From a virus, in IMG/VR virus record IMGVR_UViG_3300023284_001390, positions 1 through 30,310 of that record: a stretch of 30,310 nt of DNA. One strand, given 5' to 3'. This document shows, piece after piece, positions 1,518-26,398 of this stretch. The position numbers and the translations under genes were made by a program. Numbering within the stretch: the stretch's first letter is position 1; every line of letters begins with the position of its first letter. Below the pieces are notes generated by a model. It had not been told where the DNA came from and made no database searches. It saw nothing but the letters and a program-made list of their open reading frames with translations.

Positions 1518-1546
1518 AGCTTACTACAAAAGGCCGCAATTGTCAA
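1518..1546 (-). promoter_or_regulatory. sigma70-type promoter, GGCC-spacer family
   Basis: On the minus strand CTTGACA (-35 at 1541-1546) is followed by a 17-nt spacer with GGCC at spacer positions 6-9 and a weak TAAGCT -10 (1518-1523). The upstream side is A/T-rich. It lies immediately downstream of the stop of the 1552-3288 gene and about 20 nt upstream of the deoxyribosyltransferase start. It belongs to a family of near-identical promoters in this window, though its -10 is the poorest of the set. Confidence 0.6.
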
Positions 1547-1551
1547 GAGTT

Positions 1552-3288
1552 TTATGCAATGTGATTGCTTGGTTGTGGCTTGGAATCAAATGCAGTATCC
1601 ATGTAAGCACCCACCGGCCTCATTCCAGCGCACCACTTCCCGCGCCACATGGTGTATATCGCTCGCTTGCCGTTCTCATAGGTGACAATGTGGGAGTGAG
1701 ACCAGCTTCCCGGCCCCCTGTTGTATCCCATGTCGAGGTTGCTGGACGTGCCAGCCGTATAGATACCATCGTAAATACCGGCCTGGTGGGTGTGCCCTAC
1801 GTTGGCACGACGCCCCATCTTAGCGAAGGCTGCGGCACCACCCCGAGACCCGTTCGGACCAAGATGTCCGTGCATACCACATTCAATACCCCCGTTGGCA
1901 TCCTCACATATGACGTAGCTCTGATCTTCGTCCATGAACCAGACATTCTTGAATAGGCGAACATCTTTTTTGGTGTAATCGTAAAACCAGTGTCGCACCA
2001 TGTGAAAACCTTCACGGTTTTTGATCGCCCGCACCTTGGCCAGAGCGGCTTCCATGTAAAACTCCATGTTGACTGGATCATCCCGCCAGTCACTCTCACG
2101 AAGCCAGCGCTCTAAGGCTCTGTCATGGTTGCTATCGACTACGACGTGCTCAGTGTCAGAATGGATAACGGCCTTGACGGCTATGAAATGCATGGCGTTG
2201 TTTACTTCACGTCGCACATCTTCCTGATCAAGCACGTGTCTCTCTAGTTTCTTGAACGGGTCTTTGCGCTCATGATGATTACGGCTACCAAAGTTCAATA
2301 GATCGTGGTAAAACACTTTGTGAGGCCGCAACTCTGTCATCATATCGGCGCCGATTTCATTGACTACCAGATCTTTGTCTTGTTCGTGTATGTCCCCCCA
2401 GTTAATAGCTTCGACACGATGACCGTGAGTGATTTCCCCATCCTTAACACATAGATCTTTGTCATAGACTGTGCCATCGCTATCAGCATTGAGCTGACGT
2501 ACGAACCAGTCACCCTCGGAGTCTACCTCGACTAAGAGAGCCCCGTACCCATGATGGAACGTGGCTTGGAGGCCGGCACCCTTCACGATGTAGTTCCTCA
2601 TGGTAACAGTGCCGGTAGTGTAATTGAATTTGGTGGGTTCGAACTTGGAACTGACCACTGAAGTCATCTCAAACTTGGCATGTGGGAAGATCCCCGACTT
2701 GCGGCCGGTGTACGCTTCGTAACCGCTGAGTGGTCGTTTCACTGTCGGCAACCTTTGCCACTCCCCGCACCATACGAGGCCAGGGGCTAACTCTGCTCGT
2801 TCGTCCAAGAGGTATCGTCCAATTTCCGACGCCCATGCTAGGGTGTTTGCTCCGTACAGGGTTTCAGTCTTAGCCCCCGTAAACTTGGCCTTGTCCCCAA
2901 GCTCACCGAGCCCTGATTTCATGTACGTATATCGTGCAACTAGTACCTTGGCGTCAATATATTTTGCAAGCGTTAATAGATTGTGCCAGAGTTGCTGATG
3001 CAGTTTCGTGTTGTTCTGTGCAGATGTGCAGATGTATGTGGCGACCCCCTTCTCGGGTACGGGAAAGGACATAGTTTTTGGGGCCAACTCGTGGCCGGTG
3101 AAGATAGGTTCGGGTCGCTTGTTTTGATCCCTACTTTTAGCCCCCACCGGTTGCGGGTCCATGAGGCCGTCACTGACTGCGCGCAAGTATAGTTTCCGCG
3201 CCTGTCTATACGCAATATTTTGGTTGCGCGCAACAGCCTTTATAGATCCATGCTTAATATAAAAATTTACAAATTGCAAAGGTGTCAT
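1552..3288 (-). CDS. HTH plus metallophosphatase-like protein, resembles T5 A1 nuclease
   Basis: 578 aa. N-terminal residues about 9-40 form a helix-turn-helix (GSIKAVARNQNIAYRQARKL). The middle and C-terminal parts carry a calcineurin-like metallophosphatase pattern in order: GDIH (298-301), HDLLNFGSRNHHE (328-340), SNHDR (386-390), HGHLGPNG (473-480), GHTH (498-501) and HSH (531-533). The HGHLGPNG...GHTH tail with a following GSWSH is, from memory, very like the pre-early protein A1 of phage T5, which is involved in host DNA degradation and is of similar length. I infer a metal-dependent DNase or a regulator with phosphoesterase activity. The start overlaps the ruvC-like stop by 4 bp and has an AGGA ribosome site. 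It sits among replication genes rather than in a pre-early segment. Confidence 0.65.
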   Translation of the reverse strand: MTPLQFVNFYIKHGSIKAVARNQNIAYRQARKLYLRAVSDGLMDPQPVGAKSRDQNKRPEPIFTGHELAPKTMSFPVPEKGVATYICTSAQNNTKLHQQLWHNLLTLAKYIDAKVLVARYTYMKSGLGELGDKAKFTGAKTETLYGANTLAWASEIGRYLLDERAELAPGLVWCGEWQRLPTVKRPLSGYEAYTGRKSGIFPHAKFEMTSVVSSKFEPTKFNYTTGTVTMRNYIVKGAGLQATFHHGYGALLVEVDSEGDWFVRQLNADSDGTVYDKDLCVKDGEITHGHRVEAINWGDIHEQDKDLVVNEIGADMMTELRPHKVFYHDLLNFGSRNHHERKDPFKKLERHVLDQEDVRREVNNAMHFIAVKAVIHSDTEHVVVDSNHDRALERWLRESDWRDDPVNMEFYMEAALAKVRAIKNREGFHMVRHWFYDYTKKDVRLFKNVWFMDEDQSYVICEDANGGIECGMHGHLGPNGSRGGAAAFAKMGRRANVGHTHQAGIYDGIYTAGTSSNLDMGYNRGPGSWSHSHIVTYENGKRAIYTMWRGKWCAGMRPVGAYMDTAFDSKPQPSNHIA

Positions 3289-3767
3289 GATTCGTTTCCT
3301 ATTTGATCATAGCCATAGCGTGCAATGAGAGCGGCTTCGGCTATTCCATCCAACATACCGCCCCGTGGCCCTCGAAACAGACTGGCAGAGGCTGGGAACA
3401 GCTCTATCGCTCGTGCTACAGCAGCTTCTTTTTCTGCGGATAGGCTGTAAGACTTCTTCCACTTGCTGGCTAGGACTAAGGTGGAAGGGACAAGTTTGGA
3501 TGCAGCCATAGATCTCAGTCCACCATATACCATGCCAAATTTGAACATACTTGCTACCCCTTGGCCTGGTCGAGAGGCTACCCGTTCTATGAAAGCGTGA
3601 TCAGCCCAAAAAAAGTGTTCGTCCCATATATGGTTTAACGTTCCCCAATCTACGTCACGACCACGTGTTGTTACCTTGACCGTAGGAATTGGCTGGATTG
3701 TAAGGTTGTGTCCATCCCACATAGCGATAGCTCCAGTGAGGCCGGGATCAATTCCTAGAATGTTCAT
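3285..3767 (-). CDS. RuvC-like Holliday junction resolvase
   Basis: 160 aa, the usual RuvC length. The RNase H-fold catalytic acids are visible: D7 in LGIDPGLTGA, E61 in FIERV, and D140 and E144 in GMLDGIAEA. FIERVASRPGQG followed by a GMVYGGLR helix also matches phage RuvC proteins. It would cut four-way junctions and branched replication intermediates before packaging. The ribosome site GGAG lies 7 nt before the ATG. The start lies inside the end of the gene at 3748-3990 (20-bp overlap) and the stop overlaps the start of the A1-like gene by 4 bp, so the genes are tightly coupled. Confidence 0.9.
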   Translation of the reverse strand: MNILGIDPGLTGAIAMWDGHNLTIQPIPTVKVTTRGRDVDWGTLNHIWDEHFFWADHAFIERVASRPGQGVASMFKFGMVYGGLRSMAASKLVPSTLVLASKWKKSYSLSAEKEAAVARAIELFPASASLFRGPRGGMLDGIAEAALIARYGYDQIGNES

Positions 3768-3990
3768 GAATTTGCTCCATCCATAGCATAACAGCGAATG
3801 AGGGGTATAGCATGAACCTTTGTTTTGTAGTTGGCATTAAGGTAGGACCAAAAACCCGCTCACGTACATACCCCCGTATTATATTTATAGCCAAAAGATC
3901 CAGCGTCTTCTTAACTGGCTCTGATAGCTTCTTGCCGCCCAGCTCCAGAGCAGCCACTTGTTCCGGGGTTAGTATGATAGTGCCGTCCAT
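3748..3990 (-). CDS. Small hypothetical protein
   Basis: 80 aa, not recognised. Starts MDGTIILTPEQVAALELG, a mostly alpha-helical, soluble-looking protein with a Lys/Glu-rich first half and an aromatic, Met-rich C-terminus (FAVMLWMEQIHEH). The start is joined to the stop of the upstream gene as TGATG, and the end overlaps the ruvC-like start by 20 bp, carrying that gene's GGAG ribosome site. This junction structure supports its being a real gene. The 'LTPEQVAALE' opening occurs in many unrelated phage proteins and gives no function. Confidence 0.6.
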   Translation of the reverse strand: MDGTIILTPEQVAALELGGKKLSEPVKKTLDLLAINIIRGYVRERVFGPTLMPTTKQRFMLYPSFAVMLWMEQIHEHSRN

Positions 3991-5022: not shown

Positions 5023-5026
5023 ATTC

Positions 5027-8247: not shown

Positions 8248-8276
8248 CTTATAACATATTAAGGTGCTTGTGTCAA
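8248..8276 (-). promoter_or_regulatory. sigma70-type promoter for the DUF2815 gene
   Basis: CTTGACA (-35 at 8271-8276), 17-nt spacer, extended TGT and TATAAG (-10 at 8248-8253). It overlaps the stop of the DUF2800 gene. The spacer has AGCACC in place of the GGCC element found in the sister promoters, so it may escape the regulator of that family. Confidence 0.75.
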
Positions 8277-9505
8277 GATCTTTGTGCTCTAAATCGTTCT
8301 ATTGCGGGCATTATTTCAGCCCGCTTGTCAGTAAGAGGGGCCAGTGTGGTGCCCTTGAACGGTTTGTGAGACCACAGCTTGGTGAACGTCTTGCCACCCT
8401 CTAGTTTGTCGATTTGAGCCGGCGACTTAAGCTCGGGTTCGGTGTAAGCATCTGGCCCAAAATGAATCTCTACGGCTTGCTTCAATGTAACTACCACCAT
8501 CTCACCGTCACCTCTATCGATCGGCAGCTCCTCTTGGAAGACCCTGTTCGATCGCTTGTTGACATGTTTCTTGCCTGGGATTTTCTCCCCACCCTTAGCA
8601 CGCTTGTAGGCCTCAGCCTCGACCACTGGCTTCAAGACCACGATAGCCTCTAGCTTGGCCAGCATCTCTCCCAGTTCTTGGGTAGTCAGGAACGTCGGGT
8701 CGATGTCGATCGGGAAGTCCATAGTCTCTTGCTTAAGAGCAGGACAGTGGCCCCGAGCAGGACAAAACCGACACCATGAGCCGATGGTAAGCATTGCATC
8801 ATCTTCACGTGACGCTCGGATAGACGGCAGCATGGTACCGAACCACCACTTGGTCAGCTCGTCAACGTTTGTGATGTGTCGCCGGATGGTGCCAGCGGGA
8901 TGAGGTATGCGGGGTTGGCCTATCCAGCTCTCCACCACCTTGATGTCATCCGGCGCCGCCAGGTAAGTCTCGCAAGCCAGAGCACCGTAGTATTTGTTCT
9001 GATTGCTCGTGGGCTCGCAGGTGATGCCCCTACCATACTTGAAATCGAACACGATCATACGATCGGTGATGATGTGGATCAGTACGTCGCCCGTACCATA
9101 GGCGTCGTCATCCGTGAAGGATTCGAGCATCTTCTCGACGTAGAGGTTGACTTCGAAGCCGTCGCTCCTGGCCTTAGCTATTCGAGCCCTGACCCAATCA
9201 AGTGATTCCTGCACCCCCTCGATCATCTCCTTGTCAACCGGGAACACCCAATTGGCAACCTCGATCTCCATGCCGGCCATATCTTGGGCGTCAGTGCCGT
9301 CTTCAAGACAGGTGGACAGTATGAGGTGCGCAGCCGTACCTTCGGCCGCTGCTGGATTGGTCTTAGGGGTGATGGTGCCGGCTTTGGACAGCTTCTCAAT
9401 GAGGTTGACTGAGCCAGCGCAGCCTATGACACGATCGGAGGAGGAGGCGCCCCTGTTGGAATGCCTCCCCTCCCCTAGTACGATCCTGTTGCCGACAGTG
9501 GTCAC
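8273..9505 (-). CDS. DUF2800 family PD-(D/E)XK nuclease, Cas4/RecB-like with Fe-S cysteines
   Basis: 410 aa. RecB-type nuclease core: H60 in AEGTAAHLIL, D140 in DAYGTGDVLI, and D154-x-K156 in IVFDFKYGRG. Four cysteines fit an Fe-S cluster as in Cas4 and AddB: C29 near the N-terminus, then C245, C248 and C254 in WCRFCPARGHCPAL. A 5'-3' or end-processing DNA exonuclease for phage recombination is likely. It uses a GTG start inside the stop of the upstream gene (GTGA overlap), so it is translated by coupling. Partnership with DUF2815 next door is a common phage arrangement. It is not part of a CRISPR locus: no repeats or other cas genes are present. Confidence 0.85.
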   Translation of the reverse strand: MTTVGNRIVLGEGRHSNRGASSSDRVIGCAGSVNLIEKLSKAGTITPKTNPAAAEGTAAHLILSTCLEDGTDAQDMAGMEIEVANWVFPVDKEMIEGVQESLDWVRARIAKARSDGFEVNLYVEKMLESFTDDDAYGTGDVLIHIITDRMIVFDFKYGRGITCEPTSNQNKYYGALACETYLAAPDDIKVVESWIGQPRIPHPAGTIRRHITNVDELTKWWFGTMLPSIRASREDDAMLTIGSWCRFCPARGHCPALKQETMDFPIDIDPTFLTTQELGEMLAKLEAIVVLKPVVEAEAYKRAKGGEKIPGKKHVNKRSNRVFQEELPIDRGDGEMVVVTLKQAVEIHFGPDAYTEPELKSPAQIDKLEGGKTFTKLWSHKPFKGTTLAPLTDKRAEIMPAIERFRAQRS

Positions 9506-10347
9506 TTCGTCTTCGCCGCGATCATGTCGTCAAGCATTTTCTTGGCTTGCTTTACCTGCTCTGGAGTTAGATCACGGGTACGGGTAACCTTAAATGCAGC
9601 CATAATCTGCCGACCTTGTTGCACGGTTATGGTCCCGGAATCGTTATCTGATGGACACGCTTTCCGAAGATCGTTTTGCAAATCAAGGGCCGTGTACAAT
9701 TTATGGACGTTGTTCTTGGTCTCACCTTCCCAAGGCGCCAAATCTTCAGCATTGTCAGTAGCCTCGGGTGGCATTTCAGCACCATGATCAGCAGCGTCAT
9801 CGTCCGGACCTACCCGAGCTTCCCCTGTGCTGATGTTCGGAACCTCATCGTCAGCCGGCATGGATGGATCGGGTGGCTCGGACGGATCATGAGTTGGCTC
9901 AGTCGGGGTTTCGTCAGCCGGCAGAGATGCGTCAGCAACCGGAACTTTCTCGTCAGCCGCGTTACCCGCCAAATGTGCATCGGCAGCAGGCGTACCAGCC
10001 TTTGGACGAGTGTTTGTAGAACCCTTCGGCCGACCACGCTTCTTCGGCTCGGTAGCCGGCGGCGCCTCGGGAATCGCGTCAGTCTCTACCGTGACAGCGA
10101 CAAGATCATCAGCCGTATCGCGGGCAGCCATTTCAGCGAGCGCTGTCTTAGCAGCTTCCGGCAACTTCATACCCAGGTTCTCGTATACCAGGGCACGGGT
10201 CTGATTCAACATGTCGCGCGCGGCGTCCATCGGGTTCTCGCCCTCACGAACGGTGGCGAACATCTCGACCTCAGCGCCGGCACTGCCGAACTGTTCAGGC
10301 TGCACCTTGCGCATACGCATGACACGGATTGTGGTGATATCTGGCAT
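9502..10347 (-). CDS. AT-hook protein with long acidic disordered linker
   Basis: 281 aa. Start chosen at 10347 (MPDITTIRV), 9 nt after AAGGAG; an ATG two codons earlier is only 3 nt from it. Three parts: a folded N-terminal domain of about 90 residues (VQPEQFGSAGAEVEMFATV), an AT-hook-like KKRGRPKGS near residue 105, then about 100 residues of Pro/Asp/Glu/Ala-rich sequence with recurring PADE or PADD units, and a helical C-terminal domain of about 70 residues (LTPEQVKQAKKMLDDMIAAK). It opens the DUF2800/nuclease transcript. A DNA-bridging or recombination accessory role fits, but I do not recognise a named family. Confidence 0.65.
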   Translation of the reverse strand: MPDITTIRVMRMRKVQPEQFGSAGAEVEMFATVREGENPMDAARDMLNQTRALVYENLGMKLPEAAKTALAEMAARDTADDLVAVTVETDAIPEAPPATEPKKRGRPKGSTNTRPKAGTPAADAHLAGNAADEKVPVADASLPADETPTEPTHDPSEPPDPSMPADDEVPNISTGEARVGPDDDAADHGAEMPPEATDNAEDLAPWEGETKNNVHKLYTALDLQNDLRKACPSDNDSGTITVQQGRQIMAAFKVTRTRDLTPEQVKQAKKMLDDMIAAKTK

Positions 10348-10374
10348 CGTCATTTGCTCCTTAGTTGATGGCGC

Positions 10375-10403
10375 ATTATACCAAAAATGGCCGGCAATGT
10401 CAA
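10375..10403 (-). promoter_or_regulatory. Strong sigma70-type promoter, GGCC-spacer family
   Basis: CTTGACA (-35 at 10398-10403), a 17-nt spacer with GGCC at positions 6-9, extended TGG, and a perfect TATAAT (10375-10380) followed by GCGCCA. The predicted first base is A10369, leaving a leader of about 22 nt before the AT-hook gene. The -35 overlaps the stop codon region of the exonuclease gene upstream. Confidence 0.85.
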
Positions 10404-11017
10404 GAACTATTTCTACGCCGTAGCCGTTCCCGAGCCGCTGTGAGCAGACTGATCTGCCACTCACAATCATAGATAGGCATGTGGGGTATACCCTTAACCT
10501 CTGGTGCAACATGACTCTTGACTGATAGGTTAGCCGTTTGCACCACAGTACGAACATCGCGAAACTGATTGTAACGCCACGGCACTGGAGCTGCTAGATT
10601 AGCGGCTAGGCTATCCCATATAGGAAAGTCAAATGTTGAAGGGTTCGCCCAGAACCGAGTGATAGAATAATTGTGTGTTCCTGAACTAGGATCGGTGAAC
10701 TGGGAAGCAAAGTCATTCAACCCGTTGAGTACTGCCCAACAGTCACGGCGTTCGGTCACAGGAGCCAGAGCTTCTTCCCGAGCCGTGAGATCCTGCTGCA
10801 TCCACCACAGCAAAGTGGCTTCGCTCATGCTACGACCGAGATCGATTTGAGTTTGAATATTAAGCCGACGATAATAGCGGCCGATGGGGTTCCACGTCAA
10901 TTTCTCTAGCCCTGTGGCAGGATTAAGAAAAGTTTCAAAGATTACCGCCCCCACCGATAGCACAATGGCATTTGGAACTGTATCCAGGGTTTCAAGATCG
11001 AACATCATCTCGTACAT
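10400..11017 (-). CDS. DexA-like 3'-5' exonuclease
   Basis: 205 aa from ATG 11017 (GGAG 7 nt upstream); a longer frame to 11050 lacks a ribosome site. The start MYEMMFDLETLDTVPNAIVL places D8 and E10 as the DEDD-family first motif, with VLSVGAVIF next, as in T4 DexA and the Rv2179c-like RNase H-fold exonucleases. Other visible family features are YYRRLNIQTQIDLGRSMS followed by a TLLWW segment, and FWANPSTFDFPIWDSL, where the Asp is the second motif. The last Asp lies in MPIYDCEWQ. It would trim 3' ends of DNA or RNA during replication or host nucleic-acid breakdown. The GGAG ribosome site lies in the last codons of the small gene upstream. Confidence 0.8.
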   Translation of the reverse strand: MYEMMFDLETLDTVPNAIVLSVGAVIFETFLNPATGLEKLTWNPIGRYYRRLNIQTQIDLGRSMSEATLLWWMQQDLTAREEALAPVTERRDCWAVLNGLNDFASQFTDPSSGTHNYSITRFWANPSTFDFPIWDSLAANLAAPVPWRYNQFRDVRTVVQTANLSVKSHVAPEVKGIPHMPIYDCEWQISLLTAARERLRRRNSS

Positions 11018-11021
11018 CGTA

Positions 11022-11201
11022 TTACTCCCTAACGTATCTAGTGAACACACAAGCCGGAGCTAGTTCATTAACTAACTCAAATTCCTCGGGCGTTAATTTT
11101 TGATTGCCTGATAACGTAACCTCTCTGTCATTCTCATCTTTAATAATGACTTCAAAGTCACCACTTGAGTAGGTGCAGACAGAAATTTTCATCTCATGCA
11201 T
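11022..11201 (-). CDS. Small hypothetical protein (59 aa)
   Basis: 59 codons, MHEMKISVCTYSSGD to FTRYVRE. Start at 11201 has GGA 9 nt upstream; ATG 11192 is an alternative. Its stop region supplies the GGAG site of the DexA-like gene 5 nt downstream, and its start overlaps the end of the C39-like gene, which is the normal packing here. The sequence looks like a small beta-rich domain followed by a helix (KLTPEEFELVNEL). Not recognised. Confidence 0.55.
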   Translation of the reverse strand: MHEMKISVCTYSSGDFEVIIKDENDREVTLSGNQKLTPEEFELVNELAPACVFTRYVRE

Positions 11202-11538
11202 ACTACAAATTCCATGTAACTAGAGGGTTGATAATGATAGTCATCTGATTTAAACACACCGCGAGCTGGGTCATATATTTTATAGTTTCTCCACACCACC
11301 CAATGCCAGTTTCGACTATCAGGATCAGGGACTCTAACCAAACTATTATCAGGGATGCCTACCCATATTCTAAACGGAGGCTCATCATCCTAGTAGTGGT
11401 GCCCTTGCGGATAGTATAACCTTTCTTGTTGACATACCAAGGGATGGCTTCACGTGCTTCTTCGTAATTAACATTGCAAAGCATGGCTAAAGCGGCCACA
11501 CCACAGTCACGTTTCCGTCTTTGTCTCACGAACACCAT
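11189..11538 (-). pseudogene. C39-like cysteine protease broken by a single frameshift
   Basis: Two abutting frames make one papain-like protein of about 116 residues. The first (ATG 11538 to TAG 11359) reads MVFVRQRRKRDCGVAALAML with catalytic Cys12, as in C39 and related peptidases. The second, shifted by one base, resumes with DEPPFRIWVGIPDNSLVRVP and ends at 11189; it holds HWVVWRNYKIYDPARG, the catalytic His and the following Asp. The shift must lie between 11362 and 11389, bounded by stops in both frames, and no start codon opens the second half. The whole span is not divisible by three. It may be a decayed gene, a sequencing error, or less likely a programmed frameshift. If intact, it could act as a phage protease. 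Confidence 0.7.
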
Positions 11539-11582
11539 CGGCCTTGTCTTTCTTACGATTATAATTTTTCTTAGAACGGACT

Positions 11583-11903: not shown

Positions 11904-11932
11904 ATCATATCAGATTTTGACAGTGGTGGCAA
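11904..11932 (-). promoter_or_regulatory. sigma70-type promoter, variant
   Basis: TTGCCA (-35 at 11927-11932), 17-nt spacer, extended TGA and TATGAT (-10 at 11904-11909). The -35 and -10 each differ from consensus at one position. The GGCC spacer element is absent. It lies about 28 nt upstream of the DUF1508-like gene. Confidence 0.55.
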
Positions 11933-14152: not shown

Positions 14153-14178
14153 AGAGACCTCCTGCGATGTGAACACGC

Positions 14179-14207
14179 ATTATATCCTATGTGGCCATCA
14201 TTGTCAA
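14179..14207 (-). promoter_or_regulatory. Strong sigma70-type promoter, GGCC-spacer family
   Basis: CTTGACA (-35 at 14202-14207), 17-nt spacer with GGCC at positions 6-9, and perfect TATAAT (14179-14184) followed by GCG. This copy lacks the extended TG. Predicted start of transcription is near 14170-14172, giving the SNF2 mRNA a leader of only about 20 nt. The -35 overlaps the stop of the dCTP deaminase gene. Confidence 0.85.
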
Positions 14208-16121: not shown

Positions 16122-16140
16122 TGTTACCTCCAAAAGCTTA

Positions 16141-16190: not shown

Positions 16191-16281
16191 TCGATCCTCT
16201 GCATTTCCCAGGCTCACCCGAAGGTCTTCAGTATGCAGTAGGTAGGACGAATTGTCTAAGCCTGCGCCCTAAGCTCTGTAC

Positions 16282-16530
16282 CTAGTTAGTGGTGACACTT
16301 GTCTTCAAGAAGGCGCCGACGAAACCCAAGAAAGCACCGATCTGCCACATGGCAAACCCCTCGACGCCTAGAGCTGCGAAAATGCCAAGGATGGTCGGAG
16401 TGAAAAACCAGCCGACAACCCAGCCGATCACGATCCCCATCAACGTACTAAGCAGCACCCCGAGCATGACCAAACCTGCTGTACCCATAGCTAGGATAAT
16501 TCCACCAATAATTTTCTCACTAACGTTCAT
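16282..16530 (-). CDS. Small multi-pass membrane protein
   Basis: 82 aa, nearly all hydrophobic. Two or three helices: about 8-26 (IIGGIILAMGTAGLVMLGVL), 28-55 (MGIVIGWVVGWFFTPTILGI) and 60-76 (MWQIGAFLGFVGAFL). AGGAG lies 6 nt upstream of the ATG. Similar glycine-rich inner-membrane proteins ending in a GAFLGFVGAFLK-like segment are common in phages, with no established function. It need not be a holin, as the lysis gene is far away at 26410. Confidence 0.65.
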   Translation of the reverse strand: MNVSEKIIGGIILAMGTAGLVMLGVLLSTLMGIVIGWVVGWFFTPTILGIFAALGVEGFAMWQIGAFLGFVGAFLKTSVTTN

Positions 16531-16543
16531 TGTCTTCTCCTGT

Positions 16544-16969
16544 TCAATAGTTTTTAGCCGCTAAATCGGCCGCAAGCTTACGCATCTCTCGTTTGAATTT
16601 CCCTGCGTTAGTCGCATAGTGTGTAATGTTTCTGTCAAACTCAAGTCCTTTAGTGTAACTACGTCCTAAGATTTCAAACGCATCACCGACCTCACCCATT
16701 CTAAAGAACTCCAAAGACTCCAACTTGCTATGGGTTGCGTTTGAAAAATCCGTAGGATCGACATCTTCAGATGCATCTATCTTAAGGGTTTTAGCCATAA
16801 TCGCGCCCGCAAAACAGACTAGACATTTATCATTAAAAGATGAACGTGGGGTGTGCCATTCACCCATATCAATCTCGTAACTCTTAGAACATTCAACCAA
16901 TATGAGATCCTTTAGAGCTAGAAGAATAAGTTCAGAAGGTTTATTGGGGAGAGTTTTAGACCCAGTCAT
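16544..16969 (-). CDS. Conserved phage hypothetical protein
   Basis: 141 aa. Pattern LALKDLILVECSKSYEIDMG, then EWHTPRSSFNDKCLVCFAGA and IMAKTLKI resembles, from memory, a small phage family with 'WH.....C.VCLAGA.MA.TL'. CLVC may bind metal. C-terminus is helical and basic (NAGKFKREMRKLAADLAAK). Its AGGA ribosome site is formed by the end of the kinase/phosphatase gene. No function known. Confidence 0.6.
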   Translation of the reverse strand: MTGSKTLPNKPSELILLALKDLILVECSKSYEIDMGEWHTPRSSFNDKCLVCFAGAIMAKTLKIDASEDVDPTDFSNATHSKLESLEFFRMGEVGDAFEILGRSYTKGLEFDRNITHYATNAGKFKREMRKLAADLAAKNY

Positions 16970-16976
16970 TTCTTTT

Positions 16977-17913
16977 TCATCCTATCCTATGATCAATAAC
17001 TGTTACGCGGGGATCATCGTCACCCCGCAAGATATATTTCAAACCAGACTTAAACGATTGATGATGTTTGTCAATAAGTTTGGTCCCTTTAATGACCACG
17101 CTATCCCGCCATCCACCATCCCGATGCTTGTGAGCTAGTGGTCGATCGATGACGTGATAGAAAATTTTAGTGTTCTTGCCGCATCTATCCCGTAACGCTC
17201 GACGGTCTCTAGCATGAAGGTTAGTGGCATCCACGAAGGTCGTAAGCCCGCTCTTAACACGAGCCTCAACCAAAGCATGGATCGCTGCAAATACTTGGGT
17301 GTTGGCGCCCTGATTCTTGATATCTCCAGTGATCTCTGTTCGAAGTGCGTCAGAAGATAATACTACACCTGGACAGCGTACTATTAGGCTGGGTACCTTA
17401 AGAAGGAAATGGCTTTTGCCCGCACCTGAAGGGCCAACCATAATATGCAGCGCGCCGTCATCCCAATCCCGATTCTGATCTTCCCATTCACCGCTGTCAT
17501 GTGCGAGAACAGTCAGCCCCTCGTCTTTCCACATCTGGACCACGGATGGTCGGTCATCTACTACAAGGCGTACCTCATACCCTTGGCCTTGAATGCCCCG
17601 AAGCATCTCACGTTTCACTTCAGTGTCCGGTCGGTAGTCTCCCTCCCCTCGCATGAGTAATGCTTCGGCTTTCTGGATGTAAGATCGAGCATAAATCATG
17701 AGCTGTTGCTCGGTCTGCTTTCTATAGGTTTCAGGGCGCCCGCTAAAAAGGAATAATTTGATGGCGCCTTGATTGACCAGTATCACGGAAGGGAGGGTCG
17801 TTCACCATTTCATCGAAAAACTTTCCCCAGTCCGTGTTCCCGCCCGTCACATAATGCCGGCGATGAGATACGTCAGTCAGGGTTCCGTCGACATCAAAGA
17901 TTATGGTGTCCAT
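16977..17913 (-). pseudogene. Polynucleotide 5'-kinase/3'-phosphatase with frame break
   Basis: N-terminal HAD phosphatase and C-terminal P-loop kinase, about 311 residues if joined. Frame 1 (ATG 17913 to TAG 17743) has IIFDVDGTLTD, the HAD nucleophile motif, and ends after FFDEMVNDPPFRD. Frame 2 resumes with ILVNQGAIKLFLFSGRPETY, then YRPDTEVKREM, LVVDDRPSVV, the kinase Walker A IMVGPSGAGKSHF, LSSDALRTEI and VDATNLHARDRRALRDR. The break lies between 17746 and 17801, bounded by stops in both frames. Domain order is phosphatase first, opposite to T4 PseT. Function: heals 2',3'-cyclic or 3'-phosphate and 5'-OH RNA ends for the ligase downstream. All motifs are intact, so a sequencing error or recent mutation is more likely than old decay. 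The kinase part alone could be translated from GTG 17786. Confidence 0.8.
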
Positions 17914-17930
17914 TGTCATCGTCCTTATCT

Positions 17931-17947
17931 TTACATGACAGCCTCCT
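17931..17947 (-). promoter_or_regulatory. Start-stop mini-ORF (ATG-TAA) with perfect ribosome site
   Basis: AGGAGG (17942-17947) lies 5 nt before ATG TAA (17936-17931). The best ribosome site in this leader thus serves a one-codon frame, while the true start of the kinase/phosphatase, 12-18 nt further on, has the weaker AAGGA. This would load ribosomes and force termination and reinitiation. Confidence 0.45.
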
Positions 17948-17977
17948 GAGTTTGGGGCCGTTGTCTAATTGGTACGC

Positions 17978-18006
17978 ATTATACCATTAAAGGCCGCTAT
18001 TGTCAA
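17978..18006 (-). promoter_or_regulatory. Strong sigma70-type promoter, GGCC-spacer family
   Basis: GTTCTTGACA (-35 at 18001-18006), 17-nt spacer with GGCC at positions 6-9, extended TGG and perfect TATAAT (17978-17983) followed by GCG. A run of A lies upstream of -35. It drives the kinase/phosphatase-RNA ligase-deaminase group. The -35 overlaps the stop of the 59-aa gene upstream. Confidence 0.87.
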
Positions 18007-18686: not shown

Positions 18687-18878
18687 TCAAGTGAAATAGT
18701 AAAAGCCGCAGTATTCTTTGTCAACATGAAATCCAAGTCTATCCAATATCTCTATGTCCGAGGTTGAAACAATTCTTGAATTAGGGCCTAGGTAAATTAT
18801 ATCGTGTTCAGCCGACATCTGGGCAGTTTCATCGTAATCCCTCAAGATACACAGCCCCGTGATAAAGTCTTTCAGCAT
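18687..18878 (-). CDS. Small conserved phage protein (63 aa)
   Basis: MLKDFITGLCILRDYDET followed by AEHDIIYLGPNSRIVSTSDI and LDRLGFHVDKEYCGFYYF. The 'AEHD.IYLG...L..LG...D....C..YF' layout is, from memory, a recurrent phage and prophage miniprotein of unknown function. Start joined to the upstream stop as TGATG with GGAG 7 nt upstream. Confidence 0.6.
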   Translation of the reverse strand: MLKDFITGLCILRDYDETAQMSAEHDIIYLGPNSRIVSTSDIEILDRLGFHVDKEYCGFYYFT

Positions 18879-19222
18879 CAGAATTCTCCACTGTCTATAG
18901 CCTCGGATATGGATTGTTCGATCATTTCGTCAGCCGTATCGACGCCTACAAGGGCAATAAATTGTTGATATGTTAATTCTAAAAAATAATAATTATTATC
19001 CGGTCCAGGAGAACGTGTCTTGACATGAGGCACTGGGATATGTATGCTGACCAGTTCAAATTCAGCGTCATATGGGGGATCACCACCGCTCGGACCAAAC
19101 GATCCGCCAAAGGACCGTGCGGTACACTTCAATCCGATAGTGAACACCACCTCGTGAGCGTCACCGGGATTAAATTCTTGACCGGTCAGGATGATCTGCT
19201 CGCTGTCAAAATCTGAATGCAT
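18878..19222 (-). CDS. Hypothetical protein, first gene of leftward early operon
   Basis: 114 aa. AAGGAG lies 7 nt before the ATG and the promoter at 19249-19277 just upstream makes this the first gene of the leftward transcript. Beta-rich, with a Gly-rich turn (RSFGGSFGPSGGDPPYDAEF), then two helices and an acidic tail (ADEMIEQSISEAIDSGEF). Not recognised. Confidence 0.6.
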   Translation of the reverse strand: MHSDFDSEQIILTGQEFNPGDAHEVVFTIGLKCTARSFGGSFGPSGGDPPYDAEFELVSIHIPVPHVKTRSPGPDNNYYFLELTYQQFIALVGVDTADEMIEQSISEAIDSGEF

Positions 19223-19248: not shown

Positions 19249-19277
19249 ATTATCTCATATGAGGCCAACTCTGTCAA
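19249..19277 (-). promoter_or_regulatory. Leftward early promoter, GGCC-spacer family
   Basis: CTTGACA (-35 at 19272-19277), 17-nt spacer with GGCC at positions 6-9, extended TGA and GATAAT (-10 at 19249-19254), then GCGC. Predicted first base A19242. It faces the rightward promoter at 19322, with the two -35 boxes about 45 nt apart. Confidence 0.87.
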
Positions 19278-19321: not shown

Positions 19322-19350
19322 TTGACACTGGTGGCCATCTATGATAGTAT
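19322..19350 (+). promoter_or_regulatory. Rightward promoter for HTH protein and primase-helicase
   Basis: TTTGACA (-35 at 19322-19327), 17-nt spacer with GGCC at positions 6-9, extended TGA and TAGTAT (-10 at 19345-19350) followed by GCGCCA. It is the only rightward promoter I find. Its spacer closely matches its leftward partner (both have GGTGGCC- or GTTGGCC-like cores and an ATGA end). Confidence 0.85.
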
Positions 19351-19379: not shown

Positions 19380-19796
19380 ATGACGAAATATAAACCCCTC
19401 ATAGGTGTGGGGATTGACGACAAGCTTTCATTAAATCACATAGCTGAGCTTTTCCAGGTTCATCCTCGGACCATCCTGAGAGCAGTTGAACAAGATGTCA
19501 ACGCCTACTGGGCAGATGACCATAATCCGGCCGTATCCATTAAAGAATTGGCCGATGCATACGGTTGCAAGCCTCAAATCATTATTCGACTAGCGGAAAA
19601 CAGAGATAGTCTATTGAATGCCTCAGAGGCTGCCAAAATGATGAAAATCCGGCCCCGTACGTTTCGCCGCAACCGCCCCCGATGTTTGCGAAGTGGAGGG
19701 ATTGTTCGATTCGAACGGTCAATTATTGTGGGCCAAGCCATGCTTCGTGGTGTTGACTTCGATGTCGTGGCCATTGAAGCAGCCCTTCTTCAGTAA
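19380..19796 (+). CDS. Multi-HTH DNA-binding protein, candidate regulator or replication factor
   Basis: 138 aa from ATG 19380 (GGGAG 7 nt upstream); an earlier ATG at 19341 lies before the predicted transcript start. Three successive helix-turn-helix-like units: LSLNHIAELFQVHPRTILRA (about 18-37), VSIKELADAYGCKPQIIIRL (about 55-74) and LNASEAAKMMKIRPRTFRRN (about 83-102), the last followed by a basic RCLRSGGIVRFERS wing as in excisionase/MerR-type proteins. The three units look like internal repeats. It is encoded 6 bp before the primase-helicase and next to the divergent promoters, so it may regulate the GGCC-spacer promoters or load the replication complex. Both roles are inference. Confidence 0.7.
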   Translation: MTKYKPLIGVGIDDKLSLNHIAELFQVHPRTILRAVEQDVNAYWADDHNPAVSIKELADAYGCKPQIIIRLAENRDSLLNASEAAKMMKIRPRTFRRNRPRCLRSGGIVRFERSIIVGQAMLRGVDFDVVAIEAALLQ

Positions 19797-19801: not shown

Positions 19802-22051
19802 ATGGACCGCACAGGACGGGAATGGGCGCTTGAATACGCCCAACAAGGGTTCTTTGTCATTCAGCTCAGTGATGGCGCCAAAGAGCCCCTAGCCGGTCAG
19901 GGATGGCTACACCATGCCACCAACAACCCCGAGATTGTTGAGGAACTATTCAGACGTAATCCAAATATGAACTGGGGCGCCTGTTCTGGTCCTCACTTTG
20001 TAATCCTCGATCTAGATGTCGGCACTGGCAAGAATGGTGAAGCCGCATTATTTGCATTGGAGATGGAGCACGGCGAATTACCAGATACCTTCAAAGTTCG
20101 TACACCATCCGGAGGCATCCATATTCTACTTCATGTGCCACATGCCGTCACCAACGCCAATACCTTCCCTCCTGGTATCGATGTCAGGGGTGGACACGGT
20201 TATGTGGTCGGGCCAGGCTCAAAGCTCGTGGAAGGGCTCTGCAAATCAAAAGACACCCCAGGCGAATACACTCACATTGAAGGTTTACTAGATAATATCG
20301 CCCACGCCCCTGACTGGGTGATCGAGCGACTAAAGACCCCTGGCGCCGATGATGTGAACCATGATGTCTCTTTGTGTGATTGGGATCTGGAACAAAATCT
20401 CAACTTAGCTCGCAACTTCCTAGAGACCCGTGATCCGGCAATCGAAGGGCATGGTGGTGATGGTTGGACTGTCAACACCGCTGCCTTCATGCGTGACTAT
20501 GGTCTCTCCGAGGAAATGGCCCTCAAAATATTCGTGGAAACTGGATGGAATGATCGGTGTGAGCCCCCTTGGCCGTTGAATGAACTAGCGCTCAAGATCC
20601 GGAACGGCTACCGATATTCTGAGAACCGTCCCGGCTGCAAGCGTGACCGCATTTATGAGCTGATGGAGATGAGGGGCATCCCCCCAACCCCTGAGGAGCT
20701 GCATGAGAAATTCGAAGCCAGTCCCTTGGAGAGATTGACGCTACAGCGCGCCCGTGAAATTGCCGAACAAGAGCCCGAGAAAGAGAGACCCGAGCGCGGG
20801 TACTACTACAGTGGTGGTTTCATGGATCGAGGTGAGCGGCGGGAATATGTCATACCAGGCTGGTTGCCGGCGCATGGTATAACGGCGCTACTAGCCCGTC
20901 GTGGAGTTGGCAAAAGCACTATCCTACTCGACCTAGCCTGCCGTATTGCTCATGGCATGGATTGGCATGGCCTGGATACCACGGCACAGGAGAAATATGA
21001 GAAGGATGATTGGAAAGTCGTCTACCTTTGCGGCGAGGATGATGAGGGGCTTGAGCTAAATATGATTGGCTGGCACATTTATCACGGCAAGTTGCCTACC
21101 AACAATCTGATCATCCGAGACGGCATCACCAATCTCATGAGCGAAGACGATGTAAAAAAGGAGATCGAGAAAATCGCCGAGATGGTCGGTACAAGCCGTG
21201 TAATCATCATCATTGATACCTGGCAGCGTGCGACGGCGGCTGGCCGACAGAATGCTGACGATGAGATGAATCTGGCTATCCGTACAGCGGAAACCATGGC
21301 TGAATCATTCAATGGACCCACTATCATTGCGGTCCACCCCCCTAAAGCTAAAGAGAGCCGGCAAACTATCTTGGGTCACAGCTTCATCGAGAATGCCACT
21401 AGTGCTATATGGTTCCTAGAGGAGGTTGATGGTGGTTTGAAGCTATCCGTCACCCGTATCAAAGGGCCTGGCCACGGTAACTGGTTCAAGTTCGAGAAAA
21501 AGCTGGTAGAACTTCAAACCAATGATAAATTCGGAAAGAAAGAAATCGGACTGATCCCTCTAAAGTTCGCTGGTGTTGAAGACGAAGGTAGCGAACAAGC
21601 CCTAAGTGCAGAGGAAACGAAACGAATGGCCATAGCCTGGGCTATCCGTGGGTGTTATGATTTCCCACGTAGAGACAACATCTATGAACCATTTCAGTTG
21701 AACCCAACGGCTTGTGCTGATTTCATCTTAGACATGCACATCAATAGAAATACACAGACAAAAGAAAAAAAGGCTCATCCAGCCGCAGCGTTCTGTACGG
21801 ATTATCTATACAAATACCATATGGATATAGGCAAGGATTTAACCGTTGATGCAGTATCACACACTCTACGTGGTTTCTTGAAATATTTAGAAACAGACAA
21901 TGACATCGACTTCAACGACATGGCTGAAACCAAAATTCAATCGGTATTAAAGAAGAAGGGTTCTGAGAAGTGTATCTTTGCCGTGACCGACAAAACCGGT
22001 AGAGCGGCAAACCTAGCGCGGGAAGAAGTGAATAAAAAGAAGGGAGGCTAA
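19802..22051 (+). CDS. Primase-polymerase/helicase fusion protein
   Basis: 749 aa. N-terminal prim-pol (AEP) domain, about 1-190: HFVILDLDVGTGKNG with the D-x-D metal pair, PSGGIHILLHVP with the catalytic His, and GIDVRGGHGYVVGPGS. A linker with helical primase C-terminal features follows. The RepA-like AAA/RecA ATPase runs about 340-600: Walker A LLARRGVGKSTILLDL, GEDDEG, Walker B RVIIIIDTWQRA, and GHSFIENATSAIWFLEE. This primes and unwinds DNA for the family A polymerase encoded at 5027. It starts 6 bp after the HTH gene with no clear ribosome site, so it is probably coupled. The C-terminal 150 residues are less conserved and end in a Lys-rich tail. Confidence 0.9.
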   Translation: MDRTGREWALEYAQQGFFVIQLSDGAKEPLAGQGWLHHATNNPEIVEELFRRNPNMNWGACSGPHFVILDLDVGTGKNGEAALFALEMEHGELPDTFKVRTPSGGIHILLHVPHAVTNANTFPPGIDVRGGHGYVVGPGSKLVEGLCKSKDTPGEYTHIEGLLDNIAHAPDWVIERLKTPGADDVNHDVSLCDWDLEQNLNLARNFLETRDPAIEGHGGDGWTVNTAAFMRDYGLSEEMALKIFVETGWNDRCEPPWPLNELALKIRNGYRYSENRPGCKRDRIYELMEMRGIPPTPEELHEKFEASPLERLTLQRAREIAEQEPEKERPERGYYYSGGFMDRGERREYVIPGWLPAHGITALLARRGVGKSTILLDLACRIAHGMDWHGLDTTAQEKYEKDDWKVVYLCGEDDEGLELNMIGWHIYHGKLPTNNLIIRDGITNLMSEDDVKKEIEKIAEMVGTSRVIIIIDTWQRATAAGRQNADDEMNLAIRTAETMAESFNGPTIIAVHPPKAKESRQTILGHSFIENATSAIWFLEEVDGGLKLSVTRIKGPGHGNWFKFEKKLVELQTNDKFGKKEIGLIPLKFAGVEDEGSEQALSAEETKRMAIAWAIRGCYDFPRRDNIYEPFQLNPTACADFILDMHINRNTQTKEKKAHPAAAFCTDYLYKYHMDIGKDLTVDAVSHTLRGFLKYLETDNDIDFNDMAETKIQSVLKKKGSEKCIFAVTDKTGRAANLAREEVNKKKGG

Positions 22052-22060
22052 ACCCTCCCT
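22031..22060 (-). terminator. Intrinsic terminator between convergent operons
   Basis: AGGGAGG (22041-22047) and CCTCCCT (22054-22060) make a 7-bp stem with a 6-nt loop. In leftward transcripts it is followed by TCTTTTTATT, a proper U-tract. Rightward there is no U-tract, so it mainly stops the leftward operon. It overlaps the stop codons of both the primase-helicase and the phosphoribosyltransferase genes. Confidence 0.75.
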
Positions 22061-22616
22061 ATTGGTCTCCCCAAAGCTGCCAGAGCGCTCCTATCCATGG
22101 AGGCGGTGATATACGAGCGAACAACACGACACCAATCCTTGGCACCTCTTTATGGCGTGCACGTAACCCCTTCTTAGCCTTTTCCATGCTGGTGCCGGTG
22201 GTCAACACATCGTCAACGATCAGGAAAAAGTCACCATCGCTCTTAATGTAGGGTCGTAGAGCTTTCTCAAATGGAATACCCCCACCAGGAATCCCATGGA
22301 CCTCACGAAATGTAAATCTTTCGGCTACCCGAGCTGCCGCCCACAGCCATTCAGCTTCACTTATGGCGTCACATTCGACTTTCCATAGCAACTCTTGACC
22401 GCTATGTGAAATGAACCTCCGGTCTACGAACAGTTGCGATTTTTTGGCTGTAGTATCCGTCACCTTCTTGTCCTTTTGCTGCTGAGCTGCTTTGATCAAA
22501 CGACTTATATTGAATCCTTTCGGTAATCCCGTTTGTAATTGTAACGGTGGTAATCCCAATGAGATATCCCGATATTCGAAACCGTCATGATATCTATTTT
22601 TGTGCTTCAATGTCAT
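22059..22616 (-). CDS. Phosphoribosyltransferase-like protein
   Basis: 185 aa. The PRPP-binding loop of type I phosphoribosyltransferases is clear at 132-143 (LIVDDVLTTGTS), followed by a basic KAKKGLRARHKE helix. Upstream, EVHGIPGGGIPFEKALRPY resembles the flexible-loop region of orotate/purine PRTases. The N-terminal 60 residues are basic and Gln/Lys-rich and probably not part of the core. It would attach or remove ribose-5-phosphate on a base; the base is unknown. AAGGAG lies 7 nt upstream. Last gene of the operon before the terminator. Unusual company for a phage replication block. Confidence 0.75.
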   Translation of the reverse strand: MTLKHKNRYHDGFEYRDISLGLPPLQLQTGLPKGFNISRLIKAAQQQKDKKVTDTTAKKSQLFVDRRFISHSGQELLWKVECDAISEAEWLWAAARVAERFTFREVHGIPGGGIPFEKALRPYIKSDGDFFLIVDDVLTTGTSMEKAKKGLRARHKEVPRIGVVLFARISPPPWIGALWQLWGDQ

Positions 22617-23007
22617 GCAACAACTCCTTAGCCGCCTCTACAGCTTGCTTTGCAACATAATCACAGTCCCAGTTGGCGCCACGGTTCACATTATCAGCCT
22701 CAGCCACGGCGCCACCACACGTATGTACGTGCTTCAGGAACTCCCGCTCGGTGTTGTACCTGTCCAGGTCGATCTCACATCGTGAGATGATATTCGGCTT
22801 CATGATAGAACGCAGGCTAACTCGTAAGAAGTAGGTGCCAGCATCAGGTCCAACCCGACGCCGGAACACATCAACCACTACTTCCCGTGAGTGTCCTACG
22901 GTACGTTCTCTAAGGCTTTCGCCCTCGTTACGATCGCCAACAAGCATCTCATCTGCCCATTGGCGCATAATATCTTTACGGACTATCGGGTCCGATGGGT
23001 TCTCCAT
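22594..23007 (-). CDS. Hypothetical protein between ThyX and PRTase
   Basis: 137 aa. Starts MENPSDPIVRKDIMRQWADE with GAGAGG 7 nt upstream. Central beta strands (GTYFLRVSLRSIM, CEIDLDRYNTE) and a helical end (AAKELLHDIEAQK). A CGG and C pair is present but no zinc motif. Overlaps thyX by 32 bp and the PRTase gene by 23 bp. Not recognised. Confidence 0.55.
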   Translation of the reverse strand: MENPSDPIVRKDIMRQWADEMLVGDRNEGESLRERTVGHSREVVVDVFRRRVGPDAGTYFLRVSLRSIMKPNIISRCEIDLDRYNTEREFLKHVHTCGGAVAEADNVNRGANWDCDYVAKQAVEAAKELLHDIEAQK

Positions 23008-23863
23008 GGATAAACCTCTCCCTAAATTCAGTACATTCTCGTTTACTCATTATATCACCGGCCCAAGCATCTATGGCCTCAAACTGTTCGCCAGCCTGCT
23101 CCCGTGTGATAACGTCGGAGGTCAAAAGCCGATAAGTTGTTAGCATACTCTGAAGGACTCTTACCTCCATCCTAGAACACGTGTAGGCATCCCGTACATA
23201 GTCAACGAACGCCTCATGAGACAACGGGAACTTATCCTTCGCCATTGTCTCTATAGCGCTGGCATAATCCCGGATCTCCTCCTGGGCATGGGCGTCTAAC
23301 CGTAAGTCTAGGAAATGCATGAGGTTGTGAAGACTCATCAACCATACGAACTTGGTGTAAATGTTCAGAGGCAAAACCCCTCGCGCCAGCTCCCGAGATA
23401 TCCCCGCCTCCAACATGTCTCCATAAAGGTCATAGCTGGCTTTGTGTTGAGATCGAACCTCAAAGGACCATGCTTCTGAATCGGCACTCATCACTAGATC
23501 ATCTCGACCCTGTTTGTTGTCCGTAGACTGTATAGCGTAGACCTCCGGAATAAACATCTCAGCGGGTAGCTGTGTGTACCGGGCACTAACCTCGTTCATT
23601 GCACATGTACGATGTCGCACCCATTGCCGGGCAACGAAGATCGGCATCTTGACCTCGAACTTCATCATCCCCATTTCAAATGGGCTGGTGTGTCGGTGCC
23701 GTAGTAGGTAACGGATCAACACCCTATCCTTGGTCTTACCTTGCCGATCATATGAGATGCGTGCAGCATCTACGATATCCTGATCGGAGCCCATGTGGTC
23801 AACCAGACGAACGTATCCGTGATTGTGGACAGCTACTTCAATAAAGTTTGCAGGATCATACAT
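22976..23863 (-). CDS. thyX: FAD-dependent thymidylate synthase ThyX
   Basis: 295 aa from ATG 23863 (MYDPANFIEV), which overlaps the micro-protein region upstream; a longer frame to 23908 is not needed. The ThyX signature RHRTCAMNEVSARYTQLP lies at 83-100: the RHR-x7-S frame is kept, though the first Ser of the usual RHRxxSxNE is Ala88. Other family features: DAARISYD, RYLLRHRHTSPFEM. Makes dTMP from dUMP using methylene-THF, NADPH and FAD, supplied by the phage dCTP deaminase through dUTP. Length is at the upper end for ThyX. Confidence 0.93.
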   Translation of the reverse strand: MYDPANFIEVAVHNHGYVRLVDHMGSDQDIVDAARISYDRQGKTKDRVLIRYLLRHRHTSPFEMGMMKFEVKMPIFVARQWVRHRTCAMNEVSARYTQLPAEMFIPEVYAIQSTDNKQGRDDLVMSADSEAWSFEVRSQHKASYDLYGDMLEAGISRELARGVLPLNIYTKFVWLMSLHNLMHFLDLRLDAHAQEEIRDYASAIETMAKDKFPLSHEAFVDYVRDAYTCSRMEVRVLQSMLTTYRLLTSDVITREQAGEQFEAIDAWAGDIMSKRECTEFRERFIHGEPIGPDSP

Positions 23864-23867
23864 CAGT

Positions 23868-23960
23868 TCACTCGATTCCCATCTTCCATAAGACAAAGAT
23901 AAGCACAACCATCATAATAACAATGGTCTCAGTTGTTAAGGCCACCACCAGCAATTCCAT
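23868..23960 (-). CDS. Single-helix membrane micro-protein (30 aa)
   Basis: MELLVVALTTETIVIMMVVL then IFVLWKMGIE: one hydrophobic helix with a charged end. ATG overlaps the stop of the upstream gene as TGATG, and its own stop lies 4 bp before thyX; both junctions contain GAGT-A/G-AACTGATG. Two other micro-proteins here start the same way (27916 and 24984). Might regulate a membrane complex or be a small holin-like peptide. Supported by packing and composition only. Confidence 0.45.
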   Translation of the reverse strand: MELLVVALTTETIVIMMVVLIFVLWKMGIE

Positions 23961-24115: not shown

Positions 24116-24117
24116 AA

Positions 24118-24423: not shown

Positions 24424-24425
24424 TT

Positions 24426-25771: not shown

Positions 25772-26126
25772 TGTCTTCTCTCATAAGGATAGGCTTAGCA
25801 GCCAGTACAGCATTTCTCACTTCGATAAACAGAACGTTGGCAAAATCAAATGTCGCTTCAGCGTTATCAACTAAGGCAGGGTCTTCCAATCCGCTGTATA
25901 GACCTCGGAACCACCTCCTGGCATATTTAACTATCACGTTATGTTCGGCAGATAATTTTTCTCTTTTTCCGACTTTATTAGTATATCCAAGAGCATCTAA
26001 TGTCATACGAGCAGCCCGTTCACGCCACAACTTTTCTTCTTGTGATACGATCTCATTTGCCCCTCGGAAAGCACGTTGTATGGGAGGCGGCACACCTTGT
26101 ATCATGGATAGTCTACGAGTAGACAT
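25731..26126 (-). CDS. Hypothetical helical protein (131 aa)
   Basis: MSTRRLSMIQGVPPPIQRAF, then NEIVSQEEKLWRERAARMTL, AEHNVIVKYARRWFRGLYSG, and an ADDRESS-like acidic/hydrophobic helix FANVLFIEVRNAVLA. Basic and helical throughout. Start has only a weak GAG site 7 nt upstream. No family recognised. Its 3' end extends 41 bp into the methyltransferase gene. Confidence 0.5.
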   Translation of the reverse strand: MSTRRLSMIQGVPPPIQRAFRGANEIVSQEEKLWRERAARMTLDALGYTNKVGKREKLSAEHNVIVKYARRWFRGLYSGLEDPALVDNAEATFDFANVLFIEVRNAVLAAKPILMREDNDRQRSPTLQKRI

Positions 26127-26129
26127 AAG

Positions 26130-26363
26130 TTAGCTCATTGGCATTCCCGTAGGTTTTTCAGAATCTGGCTCGTCTTGATTTTCTTCTTCCATGTATATCT
26201 GATCGAACACACAAAACGCTTTCACGGTCCCAGTCCCAAATTGGCCCACGGTTACAATGGTTTCACAAGTATGCAAACGCCAACCTTTATCCCCCAGTTC
26301 ATTCAACCGAACTTGTAGGTCTTCTAAGTCACACACCAGTACGTCATACAGAAATTTATGCAT
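26130..26363 (-). CDS. DUF4177-like small protein, putatively leaderless mRNA
   Basis: 77 aa from ATG 26363. MHKFLYDVLVCDLEDLQVRL followed by NELGDKGWRLHTC matches the DUF4177 pattern of a strand, a helix ending 'LN.LG..GW.L', and further strands. The C-terminal 25 residues are acidic and disordered. No ribosome site precedes the ATG: the promoter at 26370-26398 places the first transcribed base at this A. Longer in-frame starts up to 26441 lie upstream of the promoter. Function unknown. Confidence 0.65.
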   Translation of the reverse strand: MHKFLYDVLVCDLEDLQVRLNELGDKGWRLHTCETIVTVGQFGTGTVKAFCVFDQIYMEEENQDEPDSEKPTGMPMS

Positions 26364-26369
26364 GGGGTA

Positions 26370-26398
26370 GTTATACCATATGAGTCCGCTTTTGTCAA
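26370..26398 (-). promoter_or_regulatory. sigma70-type promoter, GGCC-spacer family variant
   Basis: CTTGACA (-35 at 26393-26398), 17-nt spacer with GCGGAC where the family has GCGGCC, extended TGG and TATAAC (-10 at 26370-26375). Seven nt after the -10 comes the A of the next ATG. An A-run lies upstream of -35. Confidence 0.8.

Follow-up and report, generated by a model that had tools for sequence, protein, structure and literature searches.

Spacer element promoters in a phage replication region

The DNA analyzed here, called the window, is the whole of a 30,310-base virus record (IMGVR_UViG_3300023284_001390, labeled G000). Its gene content is that of a tailed phage region for replication and nucleotide metabolism, with genes for DNA polymerase A, a Gp2.5-like single-stranded DNA (ssDNA)-binding protein, a DUF2800 exonuclease, an SNF2 helicase, RNA ligase, PNK, prim-pol, ThyX, and a DNA transfer protein; a search of the window found no RNA families or tRNAs. 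Our subject is a set of sigma70-type promoters that carry GGCC, or a variant of it, at a fixed position between the -35 and -10 boxes (hereafter the element), together with a protein with three predicted helix-turn-helix (HTH) units whose gene lies behind one of them (Table 1).

Table 1. Promoters and associated genes in the window
Feature	Position	Strand	Description
Element promoter	1518..1546	-	TTGACA-attgc-GGCC-ttttgtag-TAAGCT; GGCC at 1532-1535
Nucleoside deoxyribosyltransferase-like gene	996-1499		Driven by the 1518 promoter
Element promoter	10375..10403	-	TTGACA-ttgcc-GGCC-atttttgg-TATAAT-GCG; drives a 281-aa gene in open reading frame (ORF) 9502-10557
Element promoter	14179..14207	-	TTGACA-atgat-GGCC-acatagga-TATAAT-GCG; drives SNF2-type helicase gene (12515-14176, GTG start)
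Element promoter	17978..18006	-	TTGACA-atagc-GGCC-tttaatgg-TATAAT-GCG; upstream of PNK/RNA ligase genes
Element promoter	19249..19277	-	TTGACA-gagtt-GGCC-tcatatga-GATAAT-GCG; drives 114-aa ORF 18878-19222
Element promoter	19322..19350	+	TTGACA-ctggt-GGCC-atctatga-TAGTAT-GCG; drives HTH gene and prim-pol
Variant element promoter	26370..26398	-	TTGACA-aaagc-GGAC-tcatatgg-TATAAC; drives a small gene in ORF 26130-26441
138-aa HTH protein	19380..19796	+	Three predicted MerR/excisionase-like HTH units: residues 15-37, 51-72, 76-112
Prim-pol/helicase gene	19802..22051	+	Prim-Pol plus AAA_25; directly follows the HTH gene
Promoter without the element	8248..8276	-	TTGACA-caagc-ACCT-taatatgt-TATAAG; upstream of the Gp2.5-like ssDNA-binding gene
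Promoter without the element	11904..11932	-	TTGCCA-N17-TATGAT

A sequence-only reading of this DNA had described six promoters with TTGACA, a spacer of exactly 17 nt, and GGCC at spacer positions 6-9, plus a seventh with GGAC, and all seven were located as described. Its account of the -10 region holds in part: TATAAT is exact at only three of the seven sites (the others read TAAGCT, GATAAT, TAGTAT, and TATAAC), and TGn and a GCG after the -10 box are each found at five. With a TTGACA -35, a spacer of approximately 17 bp, a TATAAT-like -10, and a start codon approximately 53-93 nt downstream of TTGACA at all seven sites, the sequences have the features of sigma70-type promoters. The 19249 (-) and 19322 (+) promoters form a divergent back-to-back pair.

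The element is more frequent than chance allows. With up to one mismatch, TTGACAN5GGCC occurs nine times in the window where 2.2 would be expected, a count that no shuffle out of 100 attained. When all 29 TTGACA hexamers of the window were compared at each of 26 offsets, no tetramer was shared as often as GGCC at offset 6 (six copies), a number not reached in 20,000 look-elsewhere-corrected random draws, the best of which gave five (seen 14 times). Under a weight matrix the seven sites scored 21-28 bits, and the next best match, at 14.5 bits, was at null level. Base composition therefore does not account for the element. Phage intergenic promoters can spread by duplication, so the recent copying of one promoter cassette has to be considered as well as coincidence; however, the N5, upstream, and leader sequences differ among the window copies, the null tests are decisive against coincidence, and relatives whose proteins are approximately 50% identical retain the register but use other letters. 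Coincidence, composition, or cassette copying is thus an extremely improbable origin, and chance and composition are ruled out by the window null tests together with a peak in relatives that is absent from background contigs, as described below.

The element is kept in register in relatives, with contig-specific letters

Known phages are distant from the window: its polymerase is 38% identical to those of Mesyanzhinovviridae phages and its DNA transfer protein 47-51% identical to those of Rhodobacter and Nanhaivirus phages. Closer relatives were taken from IMG/VR by polymerase alignment: G004, G001, G003 (IMGVR_UViG_3300018059_000011), G010 (IMGVR_UViG_3300025018_001404), G008 (IMGVR_UViG_3300043640_000137), and G002. 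G004 has 56% polymerase identity to the window and the same gene order. The contigs are incomplete fragments, and their noncoding TTGAC sites were listed without selection on the spacer.

The six relatives (window excluded) have 60 noncoding TTGACA sites, of which 21 place GG[C/A] precisely at spacer position 6, compared with a mean of 1.7 and a maximum of 7 at other offsets in the same sites (p = 7e-18), "noncoding" being an approximate label because genes were called with a simple ORF caller. Pooled over the seven contigs (70 sites), the favored bases at spacer positions 6-10 are G (.51), G (.69), C (.51), A (.49), and A (.57). The surrounding spacer has diverged while the element stays in exact register. 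Relatives with the -35 and -10 boxes but no spacer element, which the sequence-only reading had named as a refuting outcome, are thus not what these contigs show. An A-rich stretch precedes the -35 box at the proximal UP position in the pooled contigs and, judged by composition, may act as the UP element that the sequence-only reading had suggested. No excess at position 6 was seen in 244 other contigs (3.75 Mb; 12 of 274 noncoding TTGACA sites, with 7-16 at neighboring offsets), a background set that was chosen for a polymerase, prim-pol, or SNF2 homologue or as isolate phages and is not a random phage sample. The -10 signal at offset 18 was clear in these 274 sites; a general sigma70 spacer preference is rejected because they show no peak at the element position.

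The chief alternative to a regulator is that the host RNA polymerase prefers the element. The element would then be read by polymerase itself, through a host-specific sigma or beta-prime contact or by a phage-modified enzyme, and would mark a strong promoter class. The fixed register with the -35 box would be expected, hosts that differ between relatives could give contig-specific letters, and beta-prime contacts with spacer DNA are known from the Z element, a loose AACCT consensus at -22 to -18 (Yuzenkova 2011, as described in PMC10911233). The Z element is likewise a sequence-specific element inside the -35/-10 spacer, but the element described here is GGCC-like, lies at approximately -24 to -21, and is clade specific; identity with the Z element is rejected on both position and sequence. 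The missing peak in the background contigs, the existence of good window promoters that lack the element (8276, 11932), and the failure of the full promoter to recur as a class in bacterial genomes also argue against direct reading by polymerase, which we consider quite unlikely.

The letters at spacer positions 8-9 vary by contig (permutation p = 1e-4, with sites selected on GG at positions 6-7 only): CC in the window, CA/AA in G004, AA in G008, CA/TA in G001, CA in G010, and CG/CC in G003; G010 additionally has TGCA at the element position. Promoters of homologous genes can be compared between contigs. That of gene 9502 reads GGCC in the window, GGCA in G010, GGCA in G004 (at the operon head), and GGAA in G008; the PNK promoter reads GGCC in the window and GGCA at the same place in G004; and the HTH gene promoters read GGCC, GGCA, and GGAA. 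Contig-specific letters fit a phage-encoded regulator that drifts together with its operators, and these same-place versions point to a putative phage-made switch protein, not ordinary promoter sequence. Methylation of GGCC was rejected by reasoning because the relatives use the non-palindromic GGCA and GGAA.

Some relatives have local features of their own. In G003, two exact TTGACAN5GGCC sites, both with poor -10 boxes, stand back to back (1602-1666, L075), an arrangement that resembles the divergent pair of the window. In G008, three minus-strand sites (70704, 64373, and 84562) have the element inside a GCTAC-GGAA-(A/T)-GTAGC inverted repeat, imperfect at 84562, which suggests an extended or dyad operator in this phage. 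At the G010 TTGACATAGAC[G/T]GCAA sites, the N5 between the -35 box and the element is also conserved (TAGA[C/G]), so the G010 operator may be longer.

A triple-HTH protein is the candidate regulator

The protein most likely to regulate the element promoters is the 138-aa HTH protein, a good candidate whose orthologues adjoin prim-pol in G004, G008, and G010 as in the window. In three of these four contigs the HTH gene lies behind an element promoter. AlphaFold2 predicted three HTH units, of which the third is winged (mean predicted local distance difference test [pLDDT] 80, predicted template modeling score 0.71), and the model of the G008 orthologue repeats this topology at lower confidence (pLDDT 69). 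The units resemble excisionase, BldC, and MerR HTH domains weakly, with nearly all matches below family cut-offs or at weak E-values (NCBIfam HTH_BldC, E=0.0026; excise, E=1e-5 in G004; both below cut-off), and Foldseek matched the HTH units to BldC (6ama) at a probability of 0.80. Whole-chain fold searches gave no significant match, a profile search against the PDB gave no sequence match, and tblastn detected nothing similar in known phages.

Five isolate relatives without a motif family, R5C, R26L, Pan1, RcSimone-Hastad, and RcRudolph, yielded no orthologue. The proposal that the HTH protein is the reader is strengthened by this distribution, by the element promoter in front of its gene, and by its place beside prim-pol in those element-bearing relatives that reach the locus; it stands as a candidate assignment. 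No other HTH regulator was recognized among approximately 30 scanned window proteins, and no sigma region 4 protein was found in the window or relatives; a phage sigma factor regulon is rejected on this result.

The element could instead be a phage operator read by a different protein, either an unrecognized phage protein or a host repressor. Many small window genes have no family match, and HTH orthologues were found in just four of the seven element-bearing contigs. However, the contigs in which the HTH gene is missing seem to stop short of its locus, and contig-specific letters fit a phage-encoded partner better than a single host factor; a different reader is therefore distinctly unlikely.

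A proposed operator within the promoter core

We favor, with moderate confidence, a phage operator within sigma70 promoters that is read by the triple-HTH protein and probably acts in repression. In this model the seven sites are host sigma70-type promoters, and a regulator made by the phage, which we infer to be the HTH protein, would recognize an asymmetric operator of roughly TCTTGACA-N5-GGCC in their core, from -35 to approximately -21. With its gene behind an element site, this protein would regulate itself. The centers of TTGAC and GGCC are separated by approximately one helical turn and so lie on the same side of the DNA, where tandem HTH units could contact the two together. Protein bound at -35 to -21 would block sigma/RNA polymerase, and the resulting repression could be of the early/middle shut-off type or serve lysis-lysogeny control. 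The idea of a second protein reading the spacer, and hence of a phage regulon, gains from the register kept in relatives and the exclusion of composition, but the site may include TTGACA as well as the spacer, as the fixed register implies.

Several observations weigh against this explanation. G001 and G003 carry element sites and no HTH gene; neither has a prim-pol match, and from gene order both appear to end before the HTH locus. The HTH intergenic region is bidirectional, and the G010 HTH promoter has GACA at the element position; the divergent promoters there and in G004 carry TGCA and TGCC, respectively. The strict same-strand register with the -35 box exceeds what a repressor needs unless TTGACA is in the site, and the same constraint would follow from activation or from contact with RNA polymerase. 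As for a temperate lifestyle, an integrase was found in G008 and none in the window, G004, or G010 fragments.

With the same operator, the phage protein could be an activator that contacts the promoter at the spacer/-35 face and either recruits sigma70 RNA polymerase or remodels it, as in middle-promoter activation. Some MerR-type proteins act from the spacer, and the strict register and orientation relative to -35 would suit such a role. A -10-like TAnnnT match accompanies approximately half of element sites, compared with approximately a quarter of other sites, and many element sites in relatives have weaker -10 boxes (TAGGGT, TAGATA, TAACGT, TTAAGG), so help may be needed there. The window promoters, however, are near consensus with a 17-bp spacer, in contrast to the long spacer of MerR-activated promoters, and negative feedback is the simpler arrangement for a regulator whose own gene lies behind an element promoter. 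Activation is therefore unlikely; repression is the more likely sign, favored by the near-consensus -35 boxes, 17-bp spacers, and mostly good -10 boxes of the window.

Comparison with known systems

The nearest precedent for a repressor-operator arrangement of this kind is the operator-stoperator system of the cluster A mycobacteriophages (L5, Bxb1, and TipsytheTRex), in which the letters of the site vary between related phages along with the cognate repressor, and the TipsytheTRex repressor, a monomer with two DNA-binding domains, reads an asymmetric site (PMC9283540, PMC6550527). The likeness is one of site features, an asymmetric phage-specific consensus at promoters; repressor binding and early timing belong to cluster A. 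If our model is correct, the window system would work similarly without being a member. Cluster A phages have at least 20 sites, many in short intergenic gaps outside promoters, whereas the 30 kb fragment here has seven strong sites, all in promoter cores and none recognized within genes. The HTH protein is not recognizably homologous to the L5 or TipsytheTRex repressor, which is not among its listed structural matches. Cluster A phages are temperate, with integrase or partition genes; here an integrase is found in G008 and none in the window, G004, or G010 fragments.

For asymmetric binding by a MerR-like protein, the nearest structural idea is BldC, a MerR-like protein with an excisionase-type winged HTH that binds asymmetrically, head to tail (PMC5859096). 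The HTH units of the candidate resemble the BldC/excisionase HTH, but BldC has a single domain and oligomerizes on direct repeats, whereas three units are predicted per chain here. The sites differ too: direct repeats or long-spacer palindromes in BldC and MerR systems, compared with a 17-bp spacer and non-repeated asymmetric halves (TTGAC and GGCC) in the window. A more specific proposal, which we put forward tentatively, is that the three tandem MerR/BldC-like units would read the -35 hexamer and the spacer tetramer like a covalent head-to-tail BldC filament and so control an entire regulon of replication and repair genes across an uncultured phage clade, where the phage-specific letters would give orthogonal switches.

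T4 early promoters are another phage sigma70 set that shares extra conserved bases, which are attributed to RNA polymerase contacts; they are not known to have a phage-specific spacer tetramer of the GGCC kind. The present set offers a concrete, testable phage regulon, together with its candidate regulator, from a phage group of which no member has been studied. The GGCC, GGCA, and GGAA letters are natural experiments on regulator-operator co-change, and element sites could serve as orthogonal repressible promoters. More generally, a conserved spacer sequence in phage promoters would be a testable sign of a regulator.

Occurrence outside the clade and other features of the window

Isolate relatives (R5C, R26L, Pan1, Rhodobacter phages, Donnerlittchen, and AAT-1) have no motif family. 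The Nanhaivirus isolate R26L (PP882867.1), in which no HTH orthologue was found, has a single promoter of the form TTGACA-gacgc-GGCC-tctgcgcg-TATAAC at 79483 (+). The full promoter had six scattered exact matches in 257 Gb of bacterial genomes, and a bacterial host promoter class is rejected on this count. The TATAAT-GCG form had no matches in viral contigs. A widespread phage motif is likewise rejected: among the matches listed, the form without GCG occurs as singletons and in one contig with two. This contig, L348 (IMGVR_UViG_3300042888_000112), is the sole viral contig with two full matches among those listed; its TTGACAN5GGCC-N8-TATAAT promoters (10919-11565, -) are 618 bp apart and have similar leaders (ACAGACACAAAAGGAGC).

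The two window promoters that the sequence-only reading listed as lacking the element do lack it in their own orientation. On the opposite strand, TTGACAGTGGTGGCA lies across the -35 box and spacer of the 11904 promoter (11917-11931, +) and reads TTGACA-gtggt-GGCA; it is possibly an inverted operator, with a weight-matrix score at chance level. Orthologues of the ssDNA-binding gene in G004 and G001 carry GGCA/GGTA where the window copy is without the element, and on these sequences its promoter is an example of element gain or loss.

RNA ligase and PNK/phosphatase genes lie together behind one element promoter (15027-18006, -), which suggests a phage tRNA-repair operon under the element regulon. 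The PNK gene (16977-17919, -) is split between frames, with the N terminus at 17743-17919 and the rest at 16977-17786, where G004 has a single 330-aa ORF; a frameshift, a sequencing error, and a genuine break in the gene are all possible causes. At 295-1499 and 22059-23908, genes for a protein with a dATP/dGTP diphosphohydrolase-like N-terminal domain, a nucleoside deoxyribosyltransferase, a phosphoribosyltransferase-like protein, and ThyX possibly indicate an altered nucleotide pool or modified DNA.

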